This document shows, one piece after another, positions 16,280 through 50,359 of a stretch of DNA of 64,000 bases. The position numbers and the translations under genes were made by a program. The DNA is taken from positions 2,914,001 through 2,978,000 of the forward strand of contig NC_092812.1 in the NCBI RefSeq assembly GCF_040954645.1. The letters run 5' to 3'. Every line of letters starts with the position of its first letter. The first letter of the stretch is position 1. The notes beneath the pieces were generated by a model. It worked only from the letters and a program-made list of their open reading frames with translations. It made no database searches and was not told where the DNA came from. The stretch comes from Diabrotica undecimpunctata. Taxonomy: Eukaryota > Arthropoda > Insecta > Coleoptera > Chrysomelidae.

Positions 16280-17500
16280 CGCTTTGTGAAGTTATTACTG
16301 GTCAACTGAACTCACTTCTGCTAGTCTGTAAGTACAGTTTTACTGTAAATTTCACCGAAAATATATAATTAGTACGTATTTAACATCATTGAAAATTTTC
16401 ATTTGCTTGACGATAAACAAAAACATTTAATTACCATTGACCTGTATCTCCGGCCGGTTTTTTTCTGGCGGCTGACAGGTCCGTCTTTAGGAATGTTTAA
16501 ACATCAACGAATATGTCGCAAATCAAAGAATCAAAGAAGTTACTCTACCGCACAAACACAACAAAAATTTCCGTCAAAACGGCAACCTATCATTTTTAAT
16601 TCCATTAAAGATGCGAAAATACAAGATTACCTCCTTCCCCTGGGAGAAATCATCCATCCAAAAAATATACTATTCTGCTCTAGATTATCAAACAGTAGAA
16701 TATGTTTATATTTATCATCTGATAATATCGTAGAAAAATTCATGAATGAAAATAAAGGCAACATTGAAGTTAATAACCAGATTATACAAGCTCGACGGTA
16801 TATAACTCCCTCCGAAAGAATCATTCTCTCTAATGTTTGCCCATCCATTCCTCATGATGTATTAATTAAAGAACTTGAATCCATGGGGCTTGTTATTCTA
16901 TCTACAATGTCCTTTTTAAAAATTGGTGCACCGTTACCCGAATTTAATCATATAATCAGCTTTAGGAGACAAATCTTTATCAGCCCAACAGATCTCTCAA
17001 TTCCAGAATCGTTTTAAAATAATTACGATAATACTTCATATAGAATCTTTTTATCAAGCGGCAACCTAACGTGTTACAACTGTAAACAAAATGGGCATAT
17101 GGCAACTAACTGCAAAAACCCTATCAATCCAAATCCAAATCCTACTTCTCCAACCACAGCAGAAGAAATCTCAACATGTAGCCCTTCAGAAATATCAACC
17201 ATCACACCGACATCTACTTCAAGTTAAACAGACACCCGAACTGCAGAAAATCAACTAAATATAAAACAAACTGCGAACGAAACAACTACCTTACATATGA
17301 AAATTGAATCTCCACAGAACAGATCAAAAAGAACTATTGACGATACCTTAAGTCCTTCTCCGCCTTCCAATGATACCACTAATAAACCGAAGTTTACCAG
17401 TCCAGCAGAAATACCATTTAATCCTAAGAAACAACAAAATAAAGGTAAATCTCTAGAAGCATTCATAAACCAGCAGCCACCACCATTTATTTTAAGCTAT
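16280..17500 (+). pseudogene. I-type LINE copy C, 5' leader and ORF1
   Basis: A leader (16280-16400) precedes ORF1: CSRLSNSRICLYLSS, LSNVCPSIPHDVLIKELESMG and a zinc knuckle CYNCKQNGHMATNC at 17072-17113 (C-X2-C-X4-H-X4-C) that binds nucleic acid. A TAA at 17016-17018 and a frameshift separate the first block from the knuckle; a TAA at 17225-17227 follows. The frame KSLEAFINQQPPPFILSY is cut at 17500 by the Ty3 element and resumes at 23561. Compare the PPFVSKNHQ end of copy A. Confidence 0.75.
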
Positions 17501-17822
17501 TGTTACGATAAATATACTGGCCTAACTTTTATGACTAATTATTCTGTTTTATTGTAGAAATTTCGGTGGAAGTCTAGAACCAAAATTATGGTGAATGAGC
17601 CGGCCAAGCTTCTCGATCTTTCGATGCTGTTCTAGTATATCAGGATTTCGTATATAAATACAACATTTTTATATGGAGAGACAGTCAATTCTCAAGACCC
17701 GCGCACGCGAATTTGTTACGTACGGATATAATAAATTATTGTAAGATAAGTTAAAATAAATAAAGAAATAAATTAAATCCGTAAGTGTTATAAATATTGA
17801 ACCTTTTAATAAATTCACAACA
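17501..17822 (+). repeat. 5' LTR of the intact Ty3 element
   Basis: Starts TGTTACGATAA, ends TTCACAACA. Contains TATATAAATA at 17651-17660 (likely promoter) and AATAAA at 17730-17735 and 17755-17760 (possible poly-A signals). No difference from the 3' LTR was found on base-by-base reading. Confidence 0.97.
17651..17660 (+). promoter_or_regulatory. TATA box in LTR
   Basis: TATATAAATA, 150 bp into the LTR; the same site is at 23385-23394 in the 3' LTR. The transcription start would lie about 30 bp downstream (inferred). Confidence 0.6.
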
Positions 17823-17824
17823 AA

Positions 17825-17842
17825 TGGTGTCAGAACAGTGGA
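17825..17842 (+). promoter_or_regulatory. Primer-binding site (tRNA-Leu-like)
   Basis: TGGTGTCAGAACAGTGGA starts two bases after the LTR. The first 11 bases complement the 3' end (with CCA) of tRNA-Leu ending TTCTGACA; the rest matches only with a 2-base offset, so the tRNA identity is tentative. Confidence 0.65.
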
Positions 17843-17899: not shown

Positions 17900-20800
17900 A
17901 TGACGACGATTTATGAGCTGACAGTGACTACTTTAAGAAGACATCTAGAAGACAGAGAATTAGCTTCTACCGGAAAAAAGGCTGAGTTAGTCCAACGACT
18001 AAAGAACGCTTTGCTAGAAGAAGGACTAGATCCAGAGACTTATATATTTGAAGACAAACATGATGCTGTCATCTCGTCGATTTCGAAATTAGAGAACAAA
18101 GTCTCTGGCGATATTTCGAAAGTTTCCGGCGACATCGCTTCTTTAGAAAGCAAAGTCACTTCTGAGATGTCTGCCCTGGACGATAGAATATCTTCGTTAA
18201 AAAACCAAGTTGCTGCCGATATGTTAGCCTTCGAAGAAAAGATTAAAGAGATGGAAAGGAAGATGGAAGAAACAGGGACAGCAGAGAGAGGTAACAATCC
18301 GATTACAGTGGAGATAAAAGAAGACGAGACGAAATTTAAGTTGGAGACACGGCCGAAATTTGAAGGAAGTGGAGGTTCTATTCATGTTAAAGTCCCAACT
18401 TTCGACGGAAAATCATCATGGAACAACTACATGAAACAGTTCGAATCAGCCGCAAGAGCAAATGGATGGTCTGAAAAAGAAAAGGCTGTAAACCTGACTA
18501 TCGCTCTTCGAGGAGATGCCTTAGATGTGCTTCAGACCATAGCCGTAGAGGAGACCGATGATTTCGAACAACTGAAGAAGAGGTTAAATATGCGATATGG
18601 CCACGAACATTTGGAACATGTATATCAGTCGCAGCTTAAAAATCGTAGACAGAAGAAAGATGAGGCTCTTCAAGAATATGAGGTAGATATTGCCAGATTA
18701 GTACGATATGCTTATCCAACAGCTCCCGAAGACATGATGGAAAAATTGGCCGTTCAAACGTTTATTGATGGTCTTCGTGATCATGAAATGCAGAGAACAC
18801 TACGATTAGCTCGTCACAAGACGCTGGTTGATGTTTTATCCGCCGCCCTCGAATACGAGTCAGCTACGCAGGCCTCTGGCGGTTACAGTAAAGTTAGGAC
18901 TGTAAAAGAGGAAGGGGATGAAGATAAACTTGACCAGCTCTTTAATTTGATGAAAAGCATGACATGCAAGAAAAAGAAGACCATAAAATCAAGAAACTCA
19001 CCATCAGGAAAACCAGAACGAGTCAACCTTAGGGGGGCAGCTTCGACCCGGAACTCTTCCAAAGACCCTCTTATACTAATAGCTTCTTTGAAATGTCGTG
19101 AAGATAGTGTATATGTAGATGGAGACATAAATGGTAAAAAGCATACGTTGTTGGTGGATACCGGAGCGACCAGAACCATTATACGCCCGACAGTTATAAA
19201 CAGCCGAAAGAAACTGTTACCAACGAGGTTGCGACTTCGGACCGCTACAGGTGAAAATGCCAACATTCATGGAGAAATCCAGGTACAATTGGGGATTGGA
19301 GCAGAAAAGTTTGTCCATACTGTTATAGTTGCTGACATCGAAGAGGATGTTATATTAGGAATGGACGTAATGAATATGCATGGATTCCAATTGGATTTTA
19401 AGAATAAGGTAATCAAAGTTGGCAACGAGGAAGTATTTCTCCATCCACATAATGACAACACTGTGCAAGCAGCCATTACAGAAGATACAGTCGTGCCTGC
19501 GAGAAGCGAAACGATCATAGTAGCGCGACTACAGGGAATTGTAGACGAAGGGAGACCTGTTATGATGGAGCCTTGGAACCACGACGATGAGGTTGGTCGT
19601 GGAATCATAATTGGAAAGGAATTGGTGACTTCGGCTAAAGAAATTCCTGTGAGACTTATCAATGTCAACGACTACCCAGTGACCATAAAGAAAGAGACAA
19701 AAGTAGGAACTTGTGTACCTGTGACATCCATAATCCGTCAGGCGACAACATCTGATAATTCCAACGACAAATTCGACCAAATGGTTGCAGTTGCAGGACA
19801 GTCTCTAAATCAGATGGAGAAAAGAAAATTAAGGGAATTTCTGCGGCAGTATCGTGATATTTTCGTACCGAAAGGAGGAAAGACGGGAAGAACTACCGTT
19901 GTTAAGCATAAAATTGATACTGGTAATGCTAAGCCAATTCGTCAAACAGCTCGACGATTACCACAGGCGAAGAGAGAGGAAGCTGAAACGATTGTTCAGG
20001 AAATGAAGAAAGACGGGGTGATAGAACCTTCTACGAGTCCATGGGTCTCTCCGGTGGTCCTGGTTAAGAAGAAAGACGGAACGACGAGGTTCTGTGTGGA
20101 TTACCGTTTGCTGAACAACGTTACCAAGAAAGATAGTTATCCTCTGCCTCGGATCGATGACACATTGGACACATTGGCTGGAAGTAAATTGTTTTCTACT
20201 TTAGATTTGAAGTCTGGATACTGGCAGGTAGAAATGGACCCAGTCGATAAAGAAAAGACAGCCTTCACCACAGGATCTGGATTGTGGCAATTCAACGTTA
20301 TGCCATTTGGACTTTGTAATGCTCCTGCGACATTTGAGAGGCTTATGGAAAATGTGTTGAGAGGGTTATCTTGGAAAACATGCCTGGTTTATTTAGATGA
20401 CATAATCGTCTTGGGGGAGACATTCGAAGATCATTTGAGGAATTTAGAAAACGTTTTTAATCGACTTAAAGCTGCCCAATTGATGCTAAACCCCAAGAAG
20501 TGCCAGCTATTTCAAGGTAAAGTCAATTATCTGGGTCATATAGTCAGTAAAGAAGGAGTGGCCGTGGATAAAGGAAAAATCGATTCCATTAAGGAATGGC
20601 CAAAACCAACTGACAAACATCAAGTGAGAAGTTTTCTTGGACTATGTACTTACTACCGGAGGTTTATTAAGAAGTTTGCAGATATCGCTAAGCCATTAAC
20701 GCGACTTACGGAGGAAGCAAGAGATTACCGCTGGGATACAGACTGCCAAAATGCCTTTGAGACCTTGAAAAAGCATTTAATAACAGCACCAATTTTAGGG

Positions 20801-23245
20801 TATCCACTGCCAGAAGGAGAGTTCATCTTAGATACAGATGCAAGTAATGTGGGAATTGGAGGAGTGCTGTCTCAGATTCAAGGAGGACAGGAACGAGTCC
20901 TCGGATATTTTAGTAAAGTTCTTTCAAAACCTGAGCGGAATTATTGCGTCACGAGGAGAGAACTTCTAGCAGTAGTTAAATCAGTAGAGCACTTCTATCA
21001 ATACCTCTATGGCAGAAAGTTTCTAATCCGAACCGACCATGCCGCCCTTAAGTGGTTGATGCAGTTTAAGAATCCAGAGGGTCAGATAGCCAGGTGGATC
21101 GAACGACTCCAAGAATACGATTTTAAGATTGAGCACCGAGCCGGAGTTAGCCACAGAAACGCTGATTCTCTTTCCAGAAGGCCATGCCCAGCAGAGTGTC
21201 CCCACTGCAACAAAACGGAATCCAAGGAAGCAGCGGTGCTAAGAACGACGATTGTCAACGACGACTGGACGCCTACTAAGATAAGGGAAGAACAAGAGAG
21301 AGATCCAGTTATACAGAAAATCCGAAAATGGAAAGAGGAAAACCGTCGACCACCTTGGCAGGAAATATCAAACCTATGCTCAGTAGTTAAGACGTATTGG
21401 GCCCAGTGGGACTCATTTATCATCGAAGATGGCTTGCTCAAACGAGTCCTGGAAAATGATGACGGTGCAGAGAAAAGAAGACAGTTGGTGATCCCAAAGA
21501 GCAGAATAGCCGAAGTACTTCGTCAGTTACACGACAGTCCATCGGGAGGGCATTTTGGTGTAAGGAAAACCCTTCAGCGAATTCGGGAACGGTTTTATTG
21601 GATGAACAGTTCCGACGACGTAAAAGACTGGTGTAAGAAATGTACTATTTGTGCTACGAGTAACGGGCCTCACCGGAAAAGGAGAGCTCCTATGAGACAA
21701 TATAATGTTGGAAGCCCGTTTGAAAGAATAGCTTTGGACATTGCAGGGCCATTTCCAGAAAGTGAAAATGGGGGCAAGTACATGTTGGTAGTAATGGATT
21801 ACTTCACTAAGTGGGTCGAGATTTATGCACTTCCAGACCAGAAGGCCGCCACCGTTGCAGATAAGTTGATCCAAGAATATATCAGCCGATTTGGAGTGCC
21901 TTTGGAGATCCATAGTGACCAAGGCAGGAACTTCGAAAGCGATCTATTCCAAGGAATATGTGATAGACTAGGCATGAAGAAAACAAGAACTACAGCATAT
22001 CATCCGCAATCTGATGGTATGGTAGAACGGATGAATAGGACAGTTGGCAAATATTTGACAAAGATGGTGTCCGATCATCAGCGAGACTGGGACCAATACC
22101 TTCCGTTCTTCACAATGGCCTACAGATCTGCTGTTAACGAATCAACAGGCCAGACACCAGCGAAAGTCCTATTCGGACGCGAAATGCGACTACCTTGTGA
22201 TCTAGAGTTTGGGTGTCGACCTGGAGAAGATGTAGCAGGTGAAGATTATGTGATCGAATTACGAAGAAGAATGGACGATGTACATGAGTTGGTCCGTTCC
22301 CACCTTCAGATCGCTAGCGACCGAATGAAGAAACGGTACGATACACAAGCCGAAAAGGGTTGCTTTAAGAAGAACGACAAAGTATGGCTGTATAATCCCA
22401 AGAAGCGAAAAGGTTGTTCTCCCAAATTGCAGCAGTTTTGGGAAGGTCCATACCTCATCATGGAGAAGATCAACGATGTCATCTACCGAATAAGCAAGAT
22501 TCCGAGGGGAAAGCCGATGATAGTACACCATAACCGGTTGGCATCTTTCGAAGGTGACCACGACGTAGATGAAGAAGTGGAAGTAAACCAAGTCCAAGAT
22601 GTGTCTGACCTCACGTTTGAGGAATTCATGGGTGCCTATGGAGGTACCGGTAAAGCGAGACATGGTGTTACCACTGAAGAAAAGCAAGATCTACTCGCGC
22701 TCCCCGATGACTACTCGCTGGCCCTTACCATCCCGGCCAGTATCAAAGACGCACCAGGGTTGGCATCCGTCTTTCGAAGGAAGTTTGGTCGAATTGCAGA
22801 ACTTCAATGCCAAGTGCCAGCGTCCGGTAAAACCTTGAAACTCCAAGATGCATCACGTTACCTTTTCTACCTGGTAACAAAAGACACTGCCCGTGACCAA
22901 CCTACCTACCGAGATGTATGGGAAGCCTTACTTCAATTGAGAGGGCACGTACTAGAGTCCGACGTGCAAAAGTTAGCCATGCCAAAGTTGGAGTGCCGCC
23001 AATTAGATTGGAGGGTTATCCGAAATATGGTGGAGGAGATCTTTAAAGACACCGAAGTCCAGGTGTTAGTCTGTTGCAATCCGCATAGTTACTGGTGCGG
23101 AGAGAAAACCGTCCCTTGTCATTTTTATACAACTGGAAGTTGTAAAAGAGGGTCCAGTTGCCGATACCAGCATACAGTTCCGGTTCCAGTCCCGACAAGG
23201 TTCCAGGAGGAACCATCTTTTAAGAGGGGGGCAATGTTACGATAA
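17900..23245 (+). CDS. Gag-Pol polyprotein with SAP, macro and CCCH domains
   Basis: A 1,781-residue polyprotein that would make particles, copy element RNA into DNA and integrate it. ATG at 17900 is chosen over an upstream in-frame GTG. Order: SAP-type DNA-binding motif (5-42); coiled coil (57-122); capsid (163-322, VPTFDGKSSW); a basic stretch with no CCHC knuckle; aspartic protease (DTG 420-422, LGMD 486-489); RT with YLDD (831-834); RNase H (D978, D980); integrase HHCC zinc finger, then D1280, D1340, E1376 (D-D-35-E) and a GPY/F-like FWEGPY; macro domain (about 1594-1730); CCCH finger C1740-X7-C1748-X5-C1754-X3-H1758. The macro domain keeps GLASVFRRKFG, YLVTKDTARDQPTY (K1661) and LAMPKLEC, but the Gly-rich loop and Asp seen in active TARG1-type enzymes look altered (ECRQLDW). 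All retroelement catalytic residues are intact. Gag and Pol share one frame. The stop lies inside the 3' LTR. Confidence 0.95.
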   Translation: MTTIYELTVTTLRRHLEDRELASTGKKAELVQRLKNALLEEGLDPETYIFEDKHDAVISSISKLENKVSGDISKVSGDIASLESKVTSEMSALDDRISSLKNQVAADMLAFEEKIKEMERKMEETGTAERGNNPITVEIKEDETKFKLETRPKFEGSGGSIHVKVPTFDGKSSWNNYMKQFESAARANGWSEKEKAVNLTIALRGDALDVLQTIAVEETDDFEQLKKRLNMRYGHEHLEHVYQSQLKNRRQKKDEALQEYEVDIARLVRYAYPTAPEDMMEKLAVQTFIDGLRDHEMQRTLRLARHKTLVDVLSAALEYESATQASGGYSKVRTVKEEGDEDKLDQLFNLMKSMTCKKKKTIKSRNSPSGKPERVNLRGAASTRNSSKDPLILIASLKCREDSVYVDGDINGKKHTLLVDTGATRTIIRPTVINSRKKLLPTRLRLRTATGENANIHGEIQVQLGIGAEKFVHTVIVADIEEDVILGMDVMNMHGFQLDFKNKVIKVGNEEVFLHPHNDNTVQAAITEDTVVPARSETIIVARLQGIVDEGRPVMMEPWNHDDEVGRGIIIGKELVTSAKEIPVRLINVNDYPVTIKKETKVGTCVPVTSIIRQATTSDNSNDKFDQMVAVAGQSLNQMEKRKLREFLRQYRDIFVPKGGKTGRTTVVKHKIDTGNAKPIRQTARRLPQAKREEAETIVQEMKKDGVIEPSTSPWVSPVVLVKKKDGTTRFCVDYRLLNNVTKKDSYPLPRIDDTLDTLAGSKLFSTLDLKSGYWQVEMDPVDKEKTAFTTGSGLWQFNVMPFGLCNAPATFERLMENVLRGLSWKTCLVYLDDIIVLGETFEDHLRNLENVFNRLKAAQLMLNPKKCQLFQGKVNYLGHIVSKEGVAVDKGKIDSIKEWPKPTDKHQVRSFLGLCTYYRRFIKKFADIAKPLTRLTEEARDYRWDTDCQNAFETLKKHLITAPILGYPLPEGEFILDTDASNVGIGGVLSQIQGGQERVLGYFSKVLSKPERNYCVTRRELLAVVKSVEHFYQYLYGRKFLIRTDHAALKWLMQFKNPEGQIARWIERLQEYDFKIEHRAGVSHRNADSLSRRPCPAECPHCNKTESKEAAVLRTTIVNDDWTPTKIREEQERDPVIQKIRKWKEENRRPPWQEISNLCSVVKTYWAQWDSFIIEDGLLKRVLENDDGAEKRRQLVIPKSRIAEVLRQLHDSPSGGHFGVRKTLQRIRERFYWMNSSDDVKDWCKKCTICATSNGPHRKRRAPMRQYNVGSPFERIALDIAGPFPESENGGKYMLVVMDYFTKWVEIYALPDQKAATVADKLIQEYISRFGVPLEIHSDQGRNFESDLFQGICDRLGMKKTRTTAYHPQSDGMVERMNRTVGKYLTKMVSDHQRDWDQYLPFFTMAYRSAVNESTGQTPAKVLFGREMRLPCDLEFGCRPGEDVAGEDYVIELRRRMDDVHELVRSHLQIASDRMKKRYDTQAEKGCFKKNDKVWLYNPKKRKGCSPKLQQFWEGPYLIMEKINDVIYRISKIPRGKPMIVHHNRLASFEGDHDVDEEVEVNQVQDVSDLTFEEFMGAYGGTGKARHGVTTEEKQDLLALPDDYSLALTIPASIKDAPGLASVFRRKFGRIAELQCQVPASGKTLKLQDASRYLFYLVTKDTARDQPTYRDVWEALLQLRGHVLESDVQKLAMPKLECRQLDWRVIRNMVEEIFKDTEVQVLVCCNPHSYWCGEKTVPCHFYTTGSCKRGSSCRYQHTVPVPVPTRFQEEPSFKRGAMLR
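22688..23080 (+). other. Macro (ADP-ribose) domain within the polyprotein
   Basis: Residues about 1597-1727. Blocks in order: QDLLALPDDYSLALTI, APGLASVFRRKFG, ASRYLFYLVTKDTA, QPTYRDVWEALLQL, VQKLAMPKLEC, and NMVEEIFKDTEVQVLVC. Spacing and motifs follow the TARG1/OARD1 group of macro domains, which bind ADP-ribose and remove it from acidic residues. K1661 sits where that group has its catalytic lysine. The catalytic Asp loop is two residues shorter and lacks glycines, so binding is more likely than hydrolysis (inference). Confidence 0.85.
23117..23173 (+). other. CCCH zinc finger at the polyprotein C-terminus
   Basis: C-X7-C-X5-C-X3-H (residues 1740-1758) with the aromatic and basic residues usual in RNA-binding CCCH fingers (CHFYTTGSC, CRYQH). 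Confidence 0.85.
23222..23231 (+). promoter_or_regulatory. Polypurine tract
   Basis: AAGAGGGGGG three bases before the 3' LTR; it primes plus-strand DNA in this class. Here it also encodes the KRG near the polyprotein end. Confidence 0.85.
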
Positions 23246-23556
23246 ATATACTGGCCTAACTTTTATGACTAATTATTCTGTTTTATTGTAGAAATTTCGG
23301 TGGAAGTCTAGAACCAAAATTATGGTGAATGAGCCGGCCAAGCTTCTCGATCTTTCGATGCTGTTCTAGTATATCAGGATTTCGTATATAAATACAACAT
23401 TTTTATATGGAGAGACAGTCAATTCTCAAGACCCGCGCACGCGAATTTGTTACGTACGGATATAATAAATTATTGTAAGATAAGTTAAAATAAATAAAGA
23501 AATAAATTAAATCCGTAAGTGTTATAAATATTGAACCTTTTAATAAATTCACAACA
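23235..23556 (+). repeat. 3' LTR of the intact Ty3 element
   Basis: 322 bp identical to 17501-17822. Its first 11 bases encode the last codons and stop (TAA 23243-23245) of the polyprotein. Followed by CTAT. Confidence 0.97.
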
Positions 23557-23560
23557 CTAT

Positions 23561-42877: not shown

Positions 42878-44368
42878 ATGTTTCCAACGGGAAATGGACC
42901 AGGATTCGACAACTACATAGTTAGCCAACAAATGCAAAATGTAAACAGCCAGCCATTACCAATCCAGTATCCATCAAACCAAATGAATTGTTACCCATAA
43001 ATGCAGATTCCAAACAACACACAGGGTCAATCACAAATCAACAATATACAGGGTTATCCACAAATCTCATCACAAACACCAGGTATGTACAATATGCAAA
43101 TAAATTAACCAACCACCAATTCTTCGACGAATATGATATTTCCGCCCAATCAAGAACAATATATAAATCAACAAAACGCGCCACACAACAGCAATATAAA
43201 TAACAGAAATAGCCAGCAATACTACAGAATGTTATCAACAAGCGATGACGAACCAGAAAGTGCAAATGTGTCAACAAAAAACTCATGGCAAGTAGTTAAA
43301 ACTACAAAACGCAGAAAAATCAGATCAAATGTAGAAACAGACAAAGAAGATGATACCATTACACTATCGAACAAATATAATACACTAACGGATACCCAAG
43401 AAAATGAAACCAATCAAAATGAAACAGCGCCAAGAAAACCTAAACCACCACCAATATTTGTTTACGGTGTAAGCGACTTCCCAGAAATGAGGAAAAAATT
43501 TACAGAAATAGCTGAAGCTGAACAATACGAAACCAGGACTATGGCAAATAATACAGTCAAAATAATTTGTAGCGATCCAGAAATATACAGAAAATTATCA
43601 AGATATATGAGAGAGAACAACATTATTCATCACACATATCAACCAAAGGAAGAAAGGGCCTATAGAGTCGTAATTAAATACCTTCACTATTCACATGCAA
43701 CAGAAGATATCAAAGAAGAACTGACAAAACTGGGTCACAAGGTAAGAAACATCATTAATGCTAAACATAGAATTACAAAAGAGCCGGTAAATATGTTCTT
43801 TGTTGACCTTGAACCATCAGACAATAACCAAGATATTTATAAAATTCAGAAATTACAACACTGCAATATACAAATTGAACCACCCATAAAAAACAAAAAT
43901 ATCATCCAATGTATGAGATGTCAATTATATGGCCATTCAAAAACATATTGCAATAGACCATATGTCTGTGTGAAATGTGAAGGGCAGCACAGTACAAACA
44001 GCTGTAAAAAGAACAAGAACACGCCAGCTACGTGTGCTTTATGTGGAGGAGATCACCCAGCTAACTATAAAGGATGCGAATATTATCGTAATTTAAATAG
44101 AAATAAAAATATAGCACAAACTACATATAATCATCACCAAAATATGTCGCAAGCACGTAACAGAAACTTTATACCCAATACAGTAAGACCAAATGTAAGC
44201 TATGCTAATGCAGCGAGTAATAGACAACCTCCTGCTGCTCCTTCAGATAACCAAGATTCAAACACTATTCTTATGAAGTTTTTAGAAGAATTCAAAGCCA
44301 TGTTTAATCAAATCTTGCAACAAAACAGCATGGTAATAAACATGCTAAGTAAACTCGTATGCAAATAA
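42878..44368 (+). pseudogene. Jockey-type LINE ORF1 (Gag-like), two nonsense codons
   Basis: RNA-binding ORF1 protein. The true start is the ATG at 42878 (MFPTGNGPGF); the frame is kept to 44368 but has TAA at 42998-43000 and 43106-43108, both explicable as CAA to TAA in a Gln/Asn-rich region. The C-terminal 411 codons (from 43133) are open: a PRE_C2HC-type domain (YRVVIKYLHYSHATEDIKEE), then three zinc knuckles CMRCQLYGHSKTYC, CVKCEGQHSTNSC and CALCGGDHPANYKGC, as in jockey-clade ORF1. ORF2 overlaps the last 10 nt. Confidence 0.9.
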
Positions 44369-47033
44369 AGTTCTTTTTACGAATAGCTGAATGGAACGCC
44401 AATGGCCTGCTGAATCATAAGGACGAGGTGATAATATTTCTACAACAAAATTTTATAGATATATTATTAATAAGTGAGACACATTTTACTGACAAATCGT
44501 ATTTTAAAATACCTCATTATCTAACGTACCATACTAACCACCCAGACAAGACAGCCCATGGAGGTACAGCAATCTTGATCAAACAATCAATTAAACATTT
44601 CATGATGGAAAGTTATATAACAGACTGTATCCAAGCTACAGTAATTAAAGTGTGCTCATTACCTTACGAAATAACAATAGCAGCAGTATATTGCCCTCCA
44701 AAGCACAATATTAAAAAAAAAACGATTTCGTATCCTTCTTTAATACTCTAGGTCCAAAATTTATCGCAGCTGGTGACTTTAATAGTAAACACACTTACTG
44801 GGGATCAAGATTAATAACAACAAAGGGGAGAAAGCTCTATAGCTTAATGCAAGAAAATAAATACTCATATTTATCAACAGGAACACCAACGTACTGGCCA
44901 ACGGACCCCAAAAAAAGACCAGACCTCTTAGATTTTTGCATCATAAAAGGAATATCTAACACCTTTATGGATATAGTTTCAAGTTATGACCTATCTTCAG
45001 ATCATTCACCAATTATTGCAACAATTAGCACATGCGTTATTAACAAACAACCTACTCCAAAACTGCATGGACCTAGAACAGATTGGAACCTTTACCGAAA
45101 AATACTAGATGAAAACATTAAACTAAATGTAAGACTAAAAAGCCCTTCAGAAATAGAAGCAGCTACAAACAACCTTATAACTTTACTTCAAAACGCTGCA
45201 AAAGAAGCGACACCGAACGATGCAGATAAAAATAAAATCGAGAAAAGAATAAATATTCCATTAGAAATTAAAAAGCTCATTGCTGAAAAAAGAAGAGCAA
45301 GAGCCAAATGGCAACAAAGTCGGAACCCAGCGGATAAAACGTTTTACAATCGCTTAACAAATAAATTAAAAACACAACTAAAAATTTCAAGAGAAGAGTC
45401 AGTCAAAAAATATGTAACACAACTTAATAGATACGACCATTCAATATAAAAACCAATCAAATCATCCTTAAAACATCAAGCAATATCCCCACCAGTAAGA
45501 AAAACCACAGACACACAGGACCAATGGGCAAGAAGCGATAAAGAAAAATCAGAATTATTTGCTAAACATTTAGCAACAGTATTCCAACCACACAACAATG
45601 AAGAAGATCAAGAAATTATTAATTATCTAAACTCAGAACAACCATCAGTAAATCCAATAAAATTAACAACACCCAAAGAACTCAAAGAAGAAATCTTAAG
45701 ACTAAATATTAAAAAGTCACCAGGAATTGACCTAATAACACCAAAAATGCTAAAAGAATTACCAAAAAAGGGTATAGTAATCCTTACATATATATTTAAC
45801 GCAATATTAAGATGTAATTATTGGCCTAACAATCTAAAAATTGCAGAAATACTATTATTTCCAAAACCAGGAAAGGATCCAAGTGAAGTCTCATCCTATC
45901 GATCTATCAGTCTGTTATCGACAATCTCCAAATTACTAGAAAAACTTTTAATAAAAAGAATAGATCCAGACTTTACAGGCGCAGATTGGATACCAAATTA
46001 TCAGTTTGGATTTCGACGAGAACACTCAACTATCCAGCAATGCCACCGAATAACCCATAAAATCAATACCGCATTAGAAGAAAAGGAATATTGCCCAATG
46101 GTATCACTAGATGTACGTCAAGCTTTTGATAGGGTTTGGCATAAAGGACTTCTTTATAAAATTAAACAAATATTACCACCATTCTTTCGAATACTTACAT
46201 TGTACTTGGAAAACCGACAGTTTAGAACAAAAGTAAATGGAGAAATATCCAAAACGCATCCCATTAAGGCGGGAATTCCACAGGGAAGCGTCCTGGGACC
46301 TTTATTATATATATTATATACGTCTGATCTACCAACATCACATAACGTAACAATTGGCACATTTGCAGATGACACAGTAGCACTTACAAGTCACAAAAAC
46401 ATTAACATAGCTACACAACAACTCCAAGACTATTTGTATGAGCTTGAAAACTGGCTAAAACAATGGAAAATAAAAATAAATGAAAACAAGTCAACCCACG
46501 TAACTTTTACTTTACGACGAGAAACACCACCACCAATATATATCAACAATGAGGAAATACCCAGGACTAAAACAACCAAATATCTAGGGCTACACCTAGA
46601 CCAAACCCTGTGTTGGAAAGAACACATCAGCAAAAAAAGAAAACAAATACAACTAAGACAAAAAGAAATCAATTGGTTAATTGGAAAAAACTCCAAGCTG
46701 TCAATAAATAATAAAATTCTAATTTATAAAACAGTTATCAAACCAATATGGACATATGGCATAGAGCTATGGGGCTGTAGTAGTAAATCTAATATTGCTA
46801 TTATGGAAAGATGCCAATCAAAAATCTTAAGAGCAATTGTTGATGCACCCTGGTACGTAACCAACCAAAGAATCTATGAGGATCTCAATATCTCAACAGT
46901 GAAAGAAGTATACCAGCAAAAGAAATTACAATACATTCAAAAAGTGAACACACACTCCAATCCAATAATCTCCGCAATACCTCAACATCGAGTTATCAGA
47001 AGACTAAAGCGACGTTGGCCAACAGACCAGTAA
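44359..47033 (+). pseudogene. Jockey-type LINE ORF2 (endonuclease-RT), two lesions
   Basis: Makes the target nick and reverse-transcribes the RNA. The endonuclease starts AEWNANGLLNHKDEV with ISETHF; a one-base loss in an A-run near 44712-44722 shifts the frame, after which AAGDFNSKHTYWGS and SSDHSPIIA complete the domain. A TAA at 45447-45449 precedes the RT. RT: KSPGIDLITPKML, PGKDPSEVSSYRSISLL, FGFRREHST, SLDVRQAFDRVWHKGLL, AGIPQGSVLGPLLY and TFADDTVALTSH with catalytic FADD. The C-terminus shows GIELWGCSSKSN. There is no RNase H, as expected for jockey. Two simple changes account for the loss. Confidence 0.92.
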
Positions 47034-47193: not shown

Positions 47194-48588
47194 TCATAAT
47201 AATGAAATCTACCATCTATTTAACAAATCAAGTCTATTGAATAAAATGGATATATCAGTAAGCTGTTTTAGAAAAAGTTAATATATCATCAATGTAATGA
47301 ATTACAAAATGTTCATATTGATCCAAAATATCATGAAGACATCTACATAGAGCACTGCAAGATGATTGAAGTCCAAATGGTACTACTTTGAATTGATATA
47401 CTGCTCCATCTATCTGAAATCCTGTATACTGTCTACTTTTTCTTTCTAGAGGTATTAACCAAAAACTATGCTGTAAATCGATTTTAGTGAAAAAGGACAT
47501 TCCTGTAATTCTTCCTAGTATTCCATCTATACTCATTGGTGCTTCAAATTGCTTTTCAGTAATCTTGTTAATATTCCTTGCATCCAAACATAATCTGATT
47601 TCATCTGATCTTTTATGTACTACTACTAAAGGTTTTATGAAACGTGTAACTGCCTTCTCAATGATTCCATCTTCTAACATATTATTAATCGTTCTGTTTA
47701 CTTCTTCTCTGTATTTATATGGTATTGGGTATGATTTTGTTTTAAAATCTTTTTCTTCTTTAATTTTTATACTATGGATATAATTTTGTGCAATTCTATT
47801 TTCTTTATTGACAAGTCCCTTGTGTTGCTGCAATATGGAAACGACTATTGATTTATATTCTTCAGGGCATTTTAAAACTTTCATCATATCTTCTTCTTTA
47901 CAAATAACATTATTCTTCATTATGTACTTATTATTCCTTGCTTCCAATTTTACGCACTCCACCTCGTAGGCATCCATCTGCTTAAAATTTCCATTCCTTA
48001 AATATTCACTACAATTATTCTTTACATTCTTTTGGGACATTTCCCTATCATTAAAATACATTTCTTCTTCATAAATGTCATTATTTTCTTTTAATAATAT
48101 CCTATCAACTCTTATTCCTTCTTCCACCTCATCTTTCTGCATAAATTTAATTATTTGCCCTTCCAAAGTTACCATTTTTTCTTCAAAATCTATCTTTACT
48201 TTCTTCTTTTCCAATTCATCATTTCCCATTAATATATCAACACATAAATCCTTGACAATAAATCCTTGCATATTAATTTCTTTATTAAGAATATTAATTT
48301 TAAAATTGGCTAGTTTATCAATTTCACCCAACTTCTTATTATTTGCACCAATAATTTTAATTTTTGGAATCTTTATTATATCTGATAGTTTTAATGTATT
48401 AAAAATAAAATTCTCCGAGACTAAAGTACTTTCTGAACCAGTATCTATCATAACTTTAATCATTTTATTTTTGGCCAAAGCATTTATATAAATTAAATTA
48501 ATAGAGTCAATAATTTTATCTTCATCTAAAGAAATAAATTCAGAAGGTTTTTGATAATAGCAATGGCCTAACTTGTAATTCAGAAAGT
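47189..48588 (-). pseudogene. Pol fragment of LTR element 2 (protease and part of RT)
   Basis: The frame is open from upstream of the gag stop (VNFLNYKLGHCYY) and lies in the -1 frame relative to gag, suggesting frameshift expression. Protease: VMIDTGSESTLVSENF, with DILMGNDEL as the flap-end block. RT: SYPIPYKYREEVNRTINNML, EIRLCLDARNINKITEKQ, FFTKIDLQHSFWLIPL, VVPFGLQSSCSAL and VIHYIDDILTFSK (catalytic YIDD). After SKTAY a stop occurs at 47255-47257, and only about 60 further bases remain before the LINE. RNase H and integrase are gone, so the element could not integrate by itself. Confidence 0.88.
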
Positions 48589-50241
48589 TTACTGAACAAA
48601 AATTTGATTATTAGAATTGTCAGATTGTATCTGACCACTTGGATCTGATGTCCTATGTCTTTCCCTACTATGACTTCTACTCACATTTTCTGGCCTTGTA
48701 CTATTTCGTTCCCTGTCTTCGCAGCTTCTATTCCTTCGAACACAATTTACCTGTCTGTTATAGTTAGGTCGCTCTGTATTTCTTCTATTGTTAAAATCTT
48801 GTCTATTATTATTAGTACTGTTATTAAAATGTTGTCTATTATAACTAGTATTATTATTAAAATTCTGTCTATTTTGATTATTGTTATTATTATTAAAATT
48901 TTGTAAACTATCACCATACCTAGTATTATTGTTATATGATTGTCTATATTGTTGATTATCATTTTTATTATATTGAAAGTTATTATTGTTTTTTCTGTTG
49001 TTGTTATTATTACTTGTCATATTACCTCTTTGTATTCTTTGAATAAAATTAATAAAACTATCTATTGTTTGAATATTTTGTACAGTTACTGTTTGCACAA
49101 CATCAGCATCAAAATGTCTAGATACATTTAAGACTGTTTTATCCTCTCTAAGTGGTGGTTCTAAATATTTTGCAACTGTTATCAGTGTCAATGCATAATC
49201 TACCATATTTGATTTTAAATTGTGATTATACTTTCCAAAATATAGAATTTCTCTAAACTTGGCTTGCTCTAGTTCACCCCAATAATAATTTAAAAATTTA
49301 TTTTCAAATGTTTGAAAATTATCTAAATCATTTTCAATACTAGCAAACCAAGTTGCTGCATTGTCATTTAATGTCATTCTAATATAATCTTTAATATCAT
49401 TAATATTATTCACGAATCTTAATTTATGTTTTAAACTATTTATGTATACTCTAGGATGCAAATTTTTTATATTACCAGTGAATTTAATCCCAGTCTCATT
49501 TGTTAAATTTAAGTAAGGTCTCCCTATGTCTCTCATTTGTGAAATATCATCTATTCTCTGTTCCACATTTCTTATTTGATTACTATTTATTTGGATATTT
49601 TGTTGTATATCGTCTAATTTTTCTTCTGCGTTTCTCCTGTCTTCGTTAATTTTTACTTCTAAGTTACATTTCTGCAACTCTATTTTCTGTTCTATATCTA
49701 TCTTATTATCTTGAATAATCCTCTTTACTTCTGTCCTCTCATTGTCTATCCTTTTCTTGTAGTCATTCCGTATACTTTTTATTTCATTTGCTACTTTTTT
49801 CTCTGCAGCTTCAAGTTTTTTATCCATTTGTTTTTCCATTTGTTTTACAATTTTATTATTATTATCTTCTATTTTCTTTTCTAATTTTCTATAATTCTCT
49901 TCCAATTTCTGTTCCAATTTTTTCATGTCTTCTTTGACTTCTTGTGAATTCTGTTCCATTTTTTGTTCTATTTTTTTCATGTCTTCTTTGACTTCTTTTG
50001 AATTCTCTTCCAATTTTTTTATGTCTTCTTTGATTTCTTTTGAATTCTCTTCCATTGTCTTATTCATCTGAATCATTAATGACATCAAAGCTGCCATATT
50101 GACATTTTCCTCTCTTTCTGGATTCATTTCTGCAGTATCTTGTGAAACTTGAACTAAACTCTCCTCTTGTATAGGTTGTGTTTCTACTTCCACATCTTCT
50201 TCATTCTTTTTGCTTCTTGTACCTTTCTTTCCTTGAGACAT
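48589..50241 (-). CDS. Gag of LTR element 2, intact
   Basis: A 550-residue open frame from the ATG at 50241 (MSQGKKGTRSKK). Residues 45-235 form a long coiled coil that includes near-tandem 14-residue units (EENSKEVKEDMKKLEQ-type). The capsid-like part follows (KFTGNIKNLHPRVYINSLKH, AATWFASIENDLDNF, FLNYYWGELEQAKF, FIQRIQRG). The C-terminus is an Asn/Arg/Gln-rich low-complexity tail (about 410-545) with NNNN runs and an RHRTSDPSG end; no CCHC zinc knuckle is present. It structures the particle and binds RNA in this class. The same family is represented by the broken gag at 1-333/3093-3732. Confidence 0.88.
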   Translation of the reverse strand: MSQGKKGTRSKKNEEDVEVETQPIQEESLVQVSQDTAEMNPEREENVNMAALMSLMIQMNKTMEENSKEIKEDIKKLEENSKEVKEDMKKIEQKMEQNSQEVKEDMKKLEQKLEENYRKLEKKIEDNNNKIVKQMEKQMDKKLEAAEKKVANEIKSIRNDYKKRIDNERTEVKRIIQDNKIDIEQKIELQKCNLEVKINEDRRNAEEKLDDIQQNIQINSNQIRNVEQRIDDISQMRDIGRPYLNLTNETGIKFTGNIKNLHPRVYINSLKHKLRFVNNINDIKDYIRMTLNDNAATWFASIENDLDNFQTFENKFLNYYWGELEQAKFREILYFGKYNHNLKSNMVDYALTLITVAKYLEPPLREDKTVLNVSRHFDADVVQTVTVQNIQTIDSFINFIQRIQRGNMTSNNNNNRKNNNNFQYNKNDNQQYRQSYNNNTRYGDSLQNFNNNNNNQNRQNFNNNTSYNRQHFNNSTNNNRQDFNNRRNTERPNYNRQVNCVRRNRSCEDRERNSTRPENVSRSHSRERHRTSDPSGQIQSDNSNNQIFVQ

Positions 50242-50359
50242 TTTGAGACTTTACTTGTTCAAATATAATTAAAAATAAAATCTATAATTTTTTTTTTATG
50301 AAAATTAATTTAATTATATGAGAGCACTTATCTTCCCAAACTAATTCTTTTAAATAGAG

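Follow-up and report, generated by a model that had tools for sequence, protein, structure and literature searches.

Macro domains are used by RNA viruses as counter-defense enzymes, and in ZAP/PARP13, CCCH fingers occur together with an inactive PARP domain, an ADP-ribose-related fold. The described protein whose fold is closest to the domain reported here is human TARG1 (OARD1/C6orf130). According to excerpts of PMC8501950, this enzyme strips ADP-ribose from thymidine in DNA, its established catalytic lysine is K84, and a K84A mutant failed to protect cells against DarT, a toxin that modifies DNA; an excerpt of PMC11920425 names MARylated acidic residues and ADP-ribosylated RNA as substrates that are hydrolyzed. 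A known parallel is provided by fish epsilon-like endogenous retroviruses, which are likewise reverse-transcribing elements with an acquired macro-domain gene; however, an excerpt of PMC4977317, citing Basta et al. 2009, describes these domains as additional ORFs, whereas the macro domain described below is in frame with the Pol of a Ty3-type element and with a CCCH finger. Excerpts of three further papers state that ZAP restricts human retrotransposition (PMC4441479), have SIRT6 and L1 as their topic (PMC4695847), or mention macro domains with regard to bacterial systems and in a reference (PMC8195603). In the literature searched, which takes in few subscription papers, no description of a Ty3 element with a macro/OARD1 tail was found, and the fusion of a macro domain to the Pol of a Ty3-type retrotransposon is to that extent undescribed.

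The element lies in a 64,000-nucleotide stretch of Diabrotica undecimpunctata DNA (the window), and its features are compiled in Table 1. As the preliminary description had it, a single intact ORF runs between identical LTRs, the integrase triad D1280, D1340, and E1376 is followed by a GPY/F-like end (Pfam and residue check), and the integrase is followed in frame by a macro domain of the TARG1 type and then a CCCH finger (Pfam, fold, and relatives). The identical LTRs and the open ORF mark the element as a young member of a Ty3-type family of beetle LTR retrotransposons, the Ty3 assignment being made from domain order alone. It shares with Ty3 elements (Metaviridae) the identical TG...CA LTRs and target site duplication, primer binding site- and polypurine tract-like sites, the order Gag, protease, reverse transcriptase (RT), RNase H, and integrase (Pfam), the H2C2 domain, and the GPY/F-like end, but it differs from them in having about 240 additional residues beyond the integrase, comprising the macro domain and the CCCH finger, and a SAP domain in Gag. 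A SAP domain is also present at the Gag N terminus of Aromia relatives, e.g., P0008, and a role of Gag in DNA or chromatin binding is possible from this sequence feature. The putative primer binding site is presumably tRNA-Leu-like. No second copy of the LTR or of the tail was found within the 64-kb window.

Table 1. Features of the retrotransposon and their positions in the window
Feature	Position	Strand	Remarks
Target site duplication, left copy	17497..17500	n/a	CTAT
5' LTR	17501..17822	+	322 bp; TG...CA ends; TATATAA at about 17651; 100% identity with 3' LTR
Putative primer binding site	17825..17835	+	TGGTGTCAGAA; directly 3' of 5' LTR
Gag-Pol-tail ORF	17900..23245	+	Single, intact; 1,781 aa; ATG at 17900
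SAP domain	17918..18013	+	Gag N terminus; Pfam, 28.6 bits (cutoff, 23.9)
Retrotransposon Gag core	18497..18781	+	Pfam
Aspartic protease	19115..19375	+	Pfam
RT	20063..20545	+	Pfam; YLDD at codon 831
RNase H	20810..21118	+	Pfam
Integrase H2C2 zinc-binding domain	21491..21664	+	Pfam
Integrase core	21719..22006	+	Pfam match to rve; D1280 and D1340 fall within it, E1376 slightly past its end
Integrase p58 C-terminal (GPY/F-like) end	22445..22543	+	Pfam
Linker, integrase to macro domain	22544..22657	+	FEEFM..Y....KAR.GVT-type motif; present in relatives too
TARG1/OARD1-like macro domain	22658..23080	+	Fold and alignment
Lysine equivalent to TARG1 K84	22880-22882	+	Retained; alignment
Aspartate equivalent to D125, and HCVxxDxxM loop	Aspartate near 22997	+	Both missing in the macro domain; alignment
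CCCH zinc finger	23117..23173	+	C-X7-C-X5-C-X3-H; Pfam, 28.9 bits (cutoff, 20.5)
Putative polypurine tract	23222..23231	+	AAGAGGGGGG; translated within the last ORF residues (KRGAML)
3' LTR	23235..23556	+	Same sequence as 5' LTR; contains the ORF stop codon
Target site duplication, right copy	23557..23560	n/a	CTAT

A protein search with the C-terminal 240 residues of an ORF piece of 1,180 residues retrieved 11 proteins, namely, P0003, nine proteins of Aromia moschata (35 to 43% identity), and P0013, for which no Pfam domain is listed. P0003, from a 5,313-base Logan contig, contains protease, RT, RNase H, integrase, macro domain, and CCCH finger in one protein and is 67% identical over the tail. 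An Aromia tail as the query matched 172 proteins, the best 120 of which are listed and are all from Aromia, and a macro-domain profile search matched 667, the best 120 of which include sequences from Brassicogethes, Pyrocoelia, Callosobruchus, Aquatica, Leptinotarsa, and Diabrotica virgifera; non-beetle relatives may lie among the remainder of either set. Among the 120 listed Aromia sequences, YLVTK and GLDGLDW were present in 115 each, the loop 1 motif in 114, and the C-X7-C-X5-C-X3-H finger in 102; the three macro motifs occurred together in 107, and 92 of these had the finger too. The translated polypurine tract (LRRGQC/AM) was found in 86 of the same 120, indicating that the tail adjoins the 3' end of the element in many Aromia copies. 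Scans of viral contigs returned one stretch matching a pattern for the window tail and 24 stretches for six related tails, with no relative among them. The D. virgifera sequences P0130 and P0162 are 74 and 80% identical to the macro part of the window, and the macro domain of Leptinotarsa P0235 is carried together with an integrase p58 C-terminal end. These three proteins are named OARD1-like in the databases and, judged by their sequences, look like retrotransposon fragments, as we suggest for some of the beetle genes so named. The tail thus recurs behind the integrase in P0003, in many Aromia copies, and in Leptinotarsa, and its macro part recurs in several beetle families. Because of this recurrence, we reject the explanation that a host OARD1 gene beside a retrotransposon was joined to it by chance read-through in annotation or assembly. 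No point in favor of such an artifact was found, and the tail lies within identical LTRs, flush with the polypurine tract, so that its probability is practically negligible.

The tail is predicted to adopt a macro fold, with human TARG1 (PDB 4j5r and 4j5s) as the closest structure (rmsd of 1.4 Å over 139 residues; 34% identity), and TARG1 was recognized from the window tail at an E value of 5.9e-23. Of the two results that would have refuted the preliminary description, the lack of a structural match to a macro fold was thus not encountered, and the tail is carried by relatives as well. A structure predicted from five close relatives alone was of low confidence (mean pLDDT of 45), and the good fold model therefore leans on the OARD1 and intact-lineage rows of the alignment. 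The window domain has far less in common with alphavirus nsP3 macro domains (10 to 14% identity) than with TARG1. Among viral structures (BFVD), the tail matched the putative VP8 of Kadipiro virus best (32% identity; E value of 4.4e-16), and the TARG1-like domain of this protein looks closer than the alphavirus ones.

The active-site alignment led to three observations. (i) The catalytic lysine is retained in the motif YLVTK, at the position equivalent to TARG1 K84 (residue 78 in chain numbering, shifted by an inferred offset of 6). (ii) The catalytic aspartate, which we take to be D125 in TARG1 (the chain numbering agrees with K84 and D125), has no equivalent: loop 3 of the window domain is without GLD, and its QLDW corresponds to the second LDW of GLDGLDW in intact relatives, not to the catalytic one, a position occupied by K in P0003 and N in P0128. 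(iii) In place of the ADP-ribose loop HC(I/V)xxDxxMxxGIA, loop 1 of the window reads LTIPASIKDAPGLA. The same combination of a deleted or changed D125 equivalent, a replaced loop 1, and a retained lysine was seen in all four sequences of this lineage that cover the aspartate (window, P0003, P0128, and Diabrotica P0130), and the truncated P0162 shows the loss of loop 1 and ends before the aspartate. Residues A73, D77, and L81 of loop 1 are common to all five sequences, which, with n = 5, is a weak hint of a new constraint. The intact-motif lineages (Aromia, Brassicogethes, Pyrocoelia, P0129, and Leptinotarsa) retain HCVAxD..MS(R/K)GIA, the lysine in YLVTK, and a GLDxLDW-type loop 3, Aromia-type relatives having both the D125 equivalent and loop 1 (HCVAADLRMSRGIA). 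Variants among intact lineages include YLIPK and GWD in Callosobruchus P0137 and LDF in P0235; the sequence of Aquatica P0204 starts within loop 1.

The window domain hence shares with TARG1 the macro fold and the YLxTK lysine but differs in the missing aspartate and loop 1, in its fusion behind an integrase, and in the CCCH finger that follows. The preliminary description had suggested that the element reads or blunts ADP-ribosylation. As far as catalysis is concerned, this proposal is unsupported for the window copy, because the D125 equivalent and loop 1 have been lost, as in its nearest relatives, and we have rejected a catalytic role as the leading reading. Retention of ADP-ribose binding or removal by the window domain, in direct opposition to a PARP-type defense, would agree with its TARG1 fold, its retained lysine, and the existence of relatives with intact motifs, but the replacement of loop 1, the alignment of the QLDW aspartate with the second LDW, and the loss of the D125 equivalent in four of four sequences make it very unlikely; hydrolysis by domains of the window lineage appears unlikely on the same residues. 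Blunting of ADP-ribosylation would suit the intact relatives better than the window copy, and the motifs of the intact lineages are such that they could exert it.

We built a tree of 41 macro domains, consisting of 11 element domains (Aromia being represented by one of the 120, with the truncated P0162 left out) and 30 OARD1-type sequences, among them ones from flies, other animals, and protists (28 from the profile-search list, P0013, and human OARD1). The 11 element domains formed one side of a single branch (support, 100/99; 100% of 200 bootstrap trees), within which the inactive subgroup (window, P0003, P0128, and P0130) had a support of 100/100 and a stem of 0.91 changes per site. The single element group fits one capture by the ancestor of the family, and the topology suggests that the domain was probably captured once. 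Of the earlier proposal that the module is host derived, the separation of the element domains from the sampled OARD1 genes stands, and a host gene is the likely source of the module; the OARD1-type sequences of the tree include no confirmed beetle host OARD1.

The identity between the window and P0003 was 90% for RT, 93% for RNase H, 87% for the integrase core, 67% for the macro domain, and 61% for the finger region, and the tail is thus the fastest-changing portion in this comparison; faster change of the macro part would also be expected under relaxed constraint. A rival possibility is that the macro part, acquired in a single capture, is decaying as a passenger, unselected in the window lineage and kept in frame only because the downstream CCCH finger is needed. 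To this account, the main rival to a binding role, correspond the faster change than in RT and integrase, the lost active site, and the long stem. Neutral evolution was simulated by randomly mutating the codons of the window element itself to the observed identity in 400 runs per relative. The macro part aligned with P0003 and P0128 without a gap in 129 residues, and the replacements were more conservative than those of 400/400 simulations in each case (mean BLOSUM62 scores of 0.24 and 0.14, respectively). Simulations of the macro part were free of stops in 33/400 (P0003) and 10/400 (P0128) runs, figures to be read with the relatives coming from an ORF database, which favors stop-free copies. 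The two Diabrotica sequences P0130 and P0162, with scores of -0.07 and 0.05, fell within the simulated range (maxima of 0.22 and 0.61), as decay would predict. Protein-level constraint on the macro part was thus observed against two of the four relatives; this constraint and the continued recognition of TARG1 argue against the passenger account, which we regard as unlikely though a serious alternative.

The best-scoring solved relative of the window finger is CPSF4 (CPSF30). Because residues 1 to 520 of the ORF contain only two cysteines and no CCHC knuckle, no RNA-type finger other than the CCCH finger was seen in the window ORF. Complete fingers were found in the window, P0003, P0128, P0129, and most of the 120 listed Aromia sequences; Brassicogethes P0126 is without the first cysteine, the gene models of Pyrocoelia (P0127), Callosobruchus (P0137), and Aquatica (P0204) have no finger, and those of Diabrotica and Leptinotarsa end before its position. 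Finger replacements scored 0.83 against P0003 (simulation maximum of 1.00; 23/32 residues aligned) and 1.20 against P0128 (simulation maximum of 0.50; 27/32 residues aligned). The finger might accordingly be the working part of the tail, an RNA-packaging replacement for the missing Gag knuckle, with the macro domain as a spacer. The cysteine-poor Gag, the kinship with CPSF4, and the replacement scores are in line with this idea, as is the presence of CWNC, which resembles the start of a knuckle, in the Gag of 55 of the 120 listed Aromia sequences. However, CWNC and the CCCH finger coexist in 49 of these 120, the Aromia knuckle is itself putative, since a complete CCHC pattern was found in none of the 120 gene models, and the finger is defective or absent in the relatives named above; we consider this explanation rather doubtful.

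Kinship with PARP antiviral proteins, raised in the preliminary description, was rejected, since Pfam analysis of the ORF pieces listed no PARP/ART or WWE domain at E values up to 10, although most matches with values greater than about 0.1 are removed by the HMMER filters. The window ORF resembles ZAP/PARP13 in pairing CCCH with an ADP-ribose-related fold, but it has one finger, and a macro domain instead of a PARP domain.

With moderate confidence, we favor the following reading, for which timing, ligand, and function are what we infer. The ancestor of a beetle Ty3-type family probably captured a TARG1-type macro domain once, and in most of the lineages observed the domain has kept the motifs required for the TARG1 hydrolase. 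Made together with Gag-Pol, the tail should travel with the integrase. In the intact lineages, the macro domain probably enters the nucleus with it and removes PARP-placed ADP-ribose from the nucleic acid of the element, the integrase, or the target chromatin, while the CCCH finger may hold RNA or single-stranded DNA. In the window lineage, the catalytic aspartate and loop 1 have been lost and the predicted fold kept, most likely leaving a noncatalytic binding appendix of integrase/Pol in which the macro domain and the finger may hold element RNA or cDNA or tether the complex to chromatin. A wider version, put forward tentatively as possible, is that a Ty3 lineage has fixed an ADP-ribosylhydrolase in its Pol, that insects use ADP-ribosylation against retroelements, and that one sublineage turned the enzyme into a noncatalytic binding domain serving the integrase together with the CCCH finger, perhaps as a tether or decoy. 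The family offers a testable case for ADP-ribosylation mattering to insect retroelements and, with apparently intact and apparently inactive versions of one domain, a naturally occurring pair in which enzyme and pseudoenzyme can be compared.

The window contains other mobile elements. A second Ty3-like element on the minus strand (47255-50250) has two ORFs, with a coiled-coil Gag-like ORF ending in an asparagine-rich stretch, a protease, and a partial RT. On the plus strand, a non-LTR retrotransposon (43109-47033) comprises a PRE_C2HC ORF and an RT ORF, the intervening piece being endonuclease-like by eye, and two ORFs (1389-2885) match successive parts of the DDE_Tnp_1_7 transposase model, presumably of the piggyBac type.
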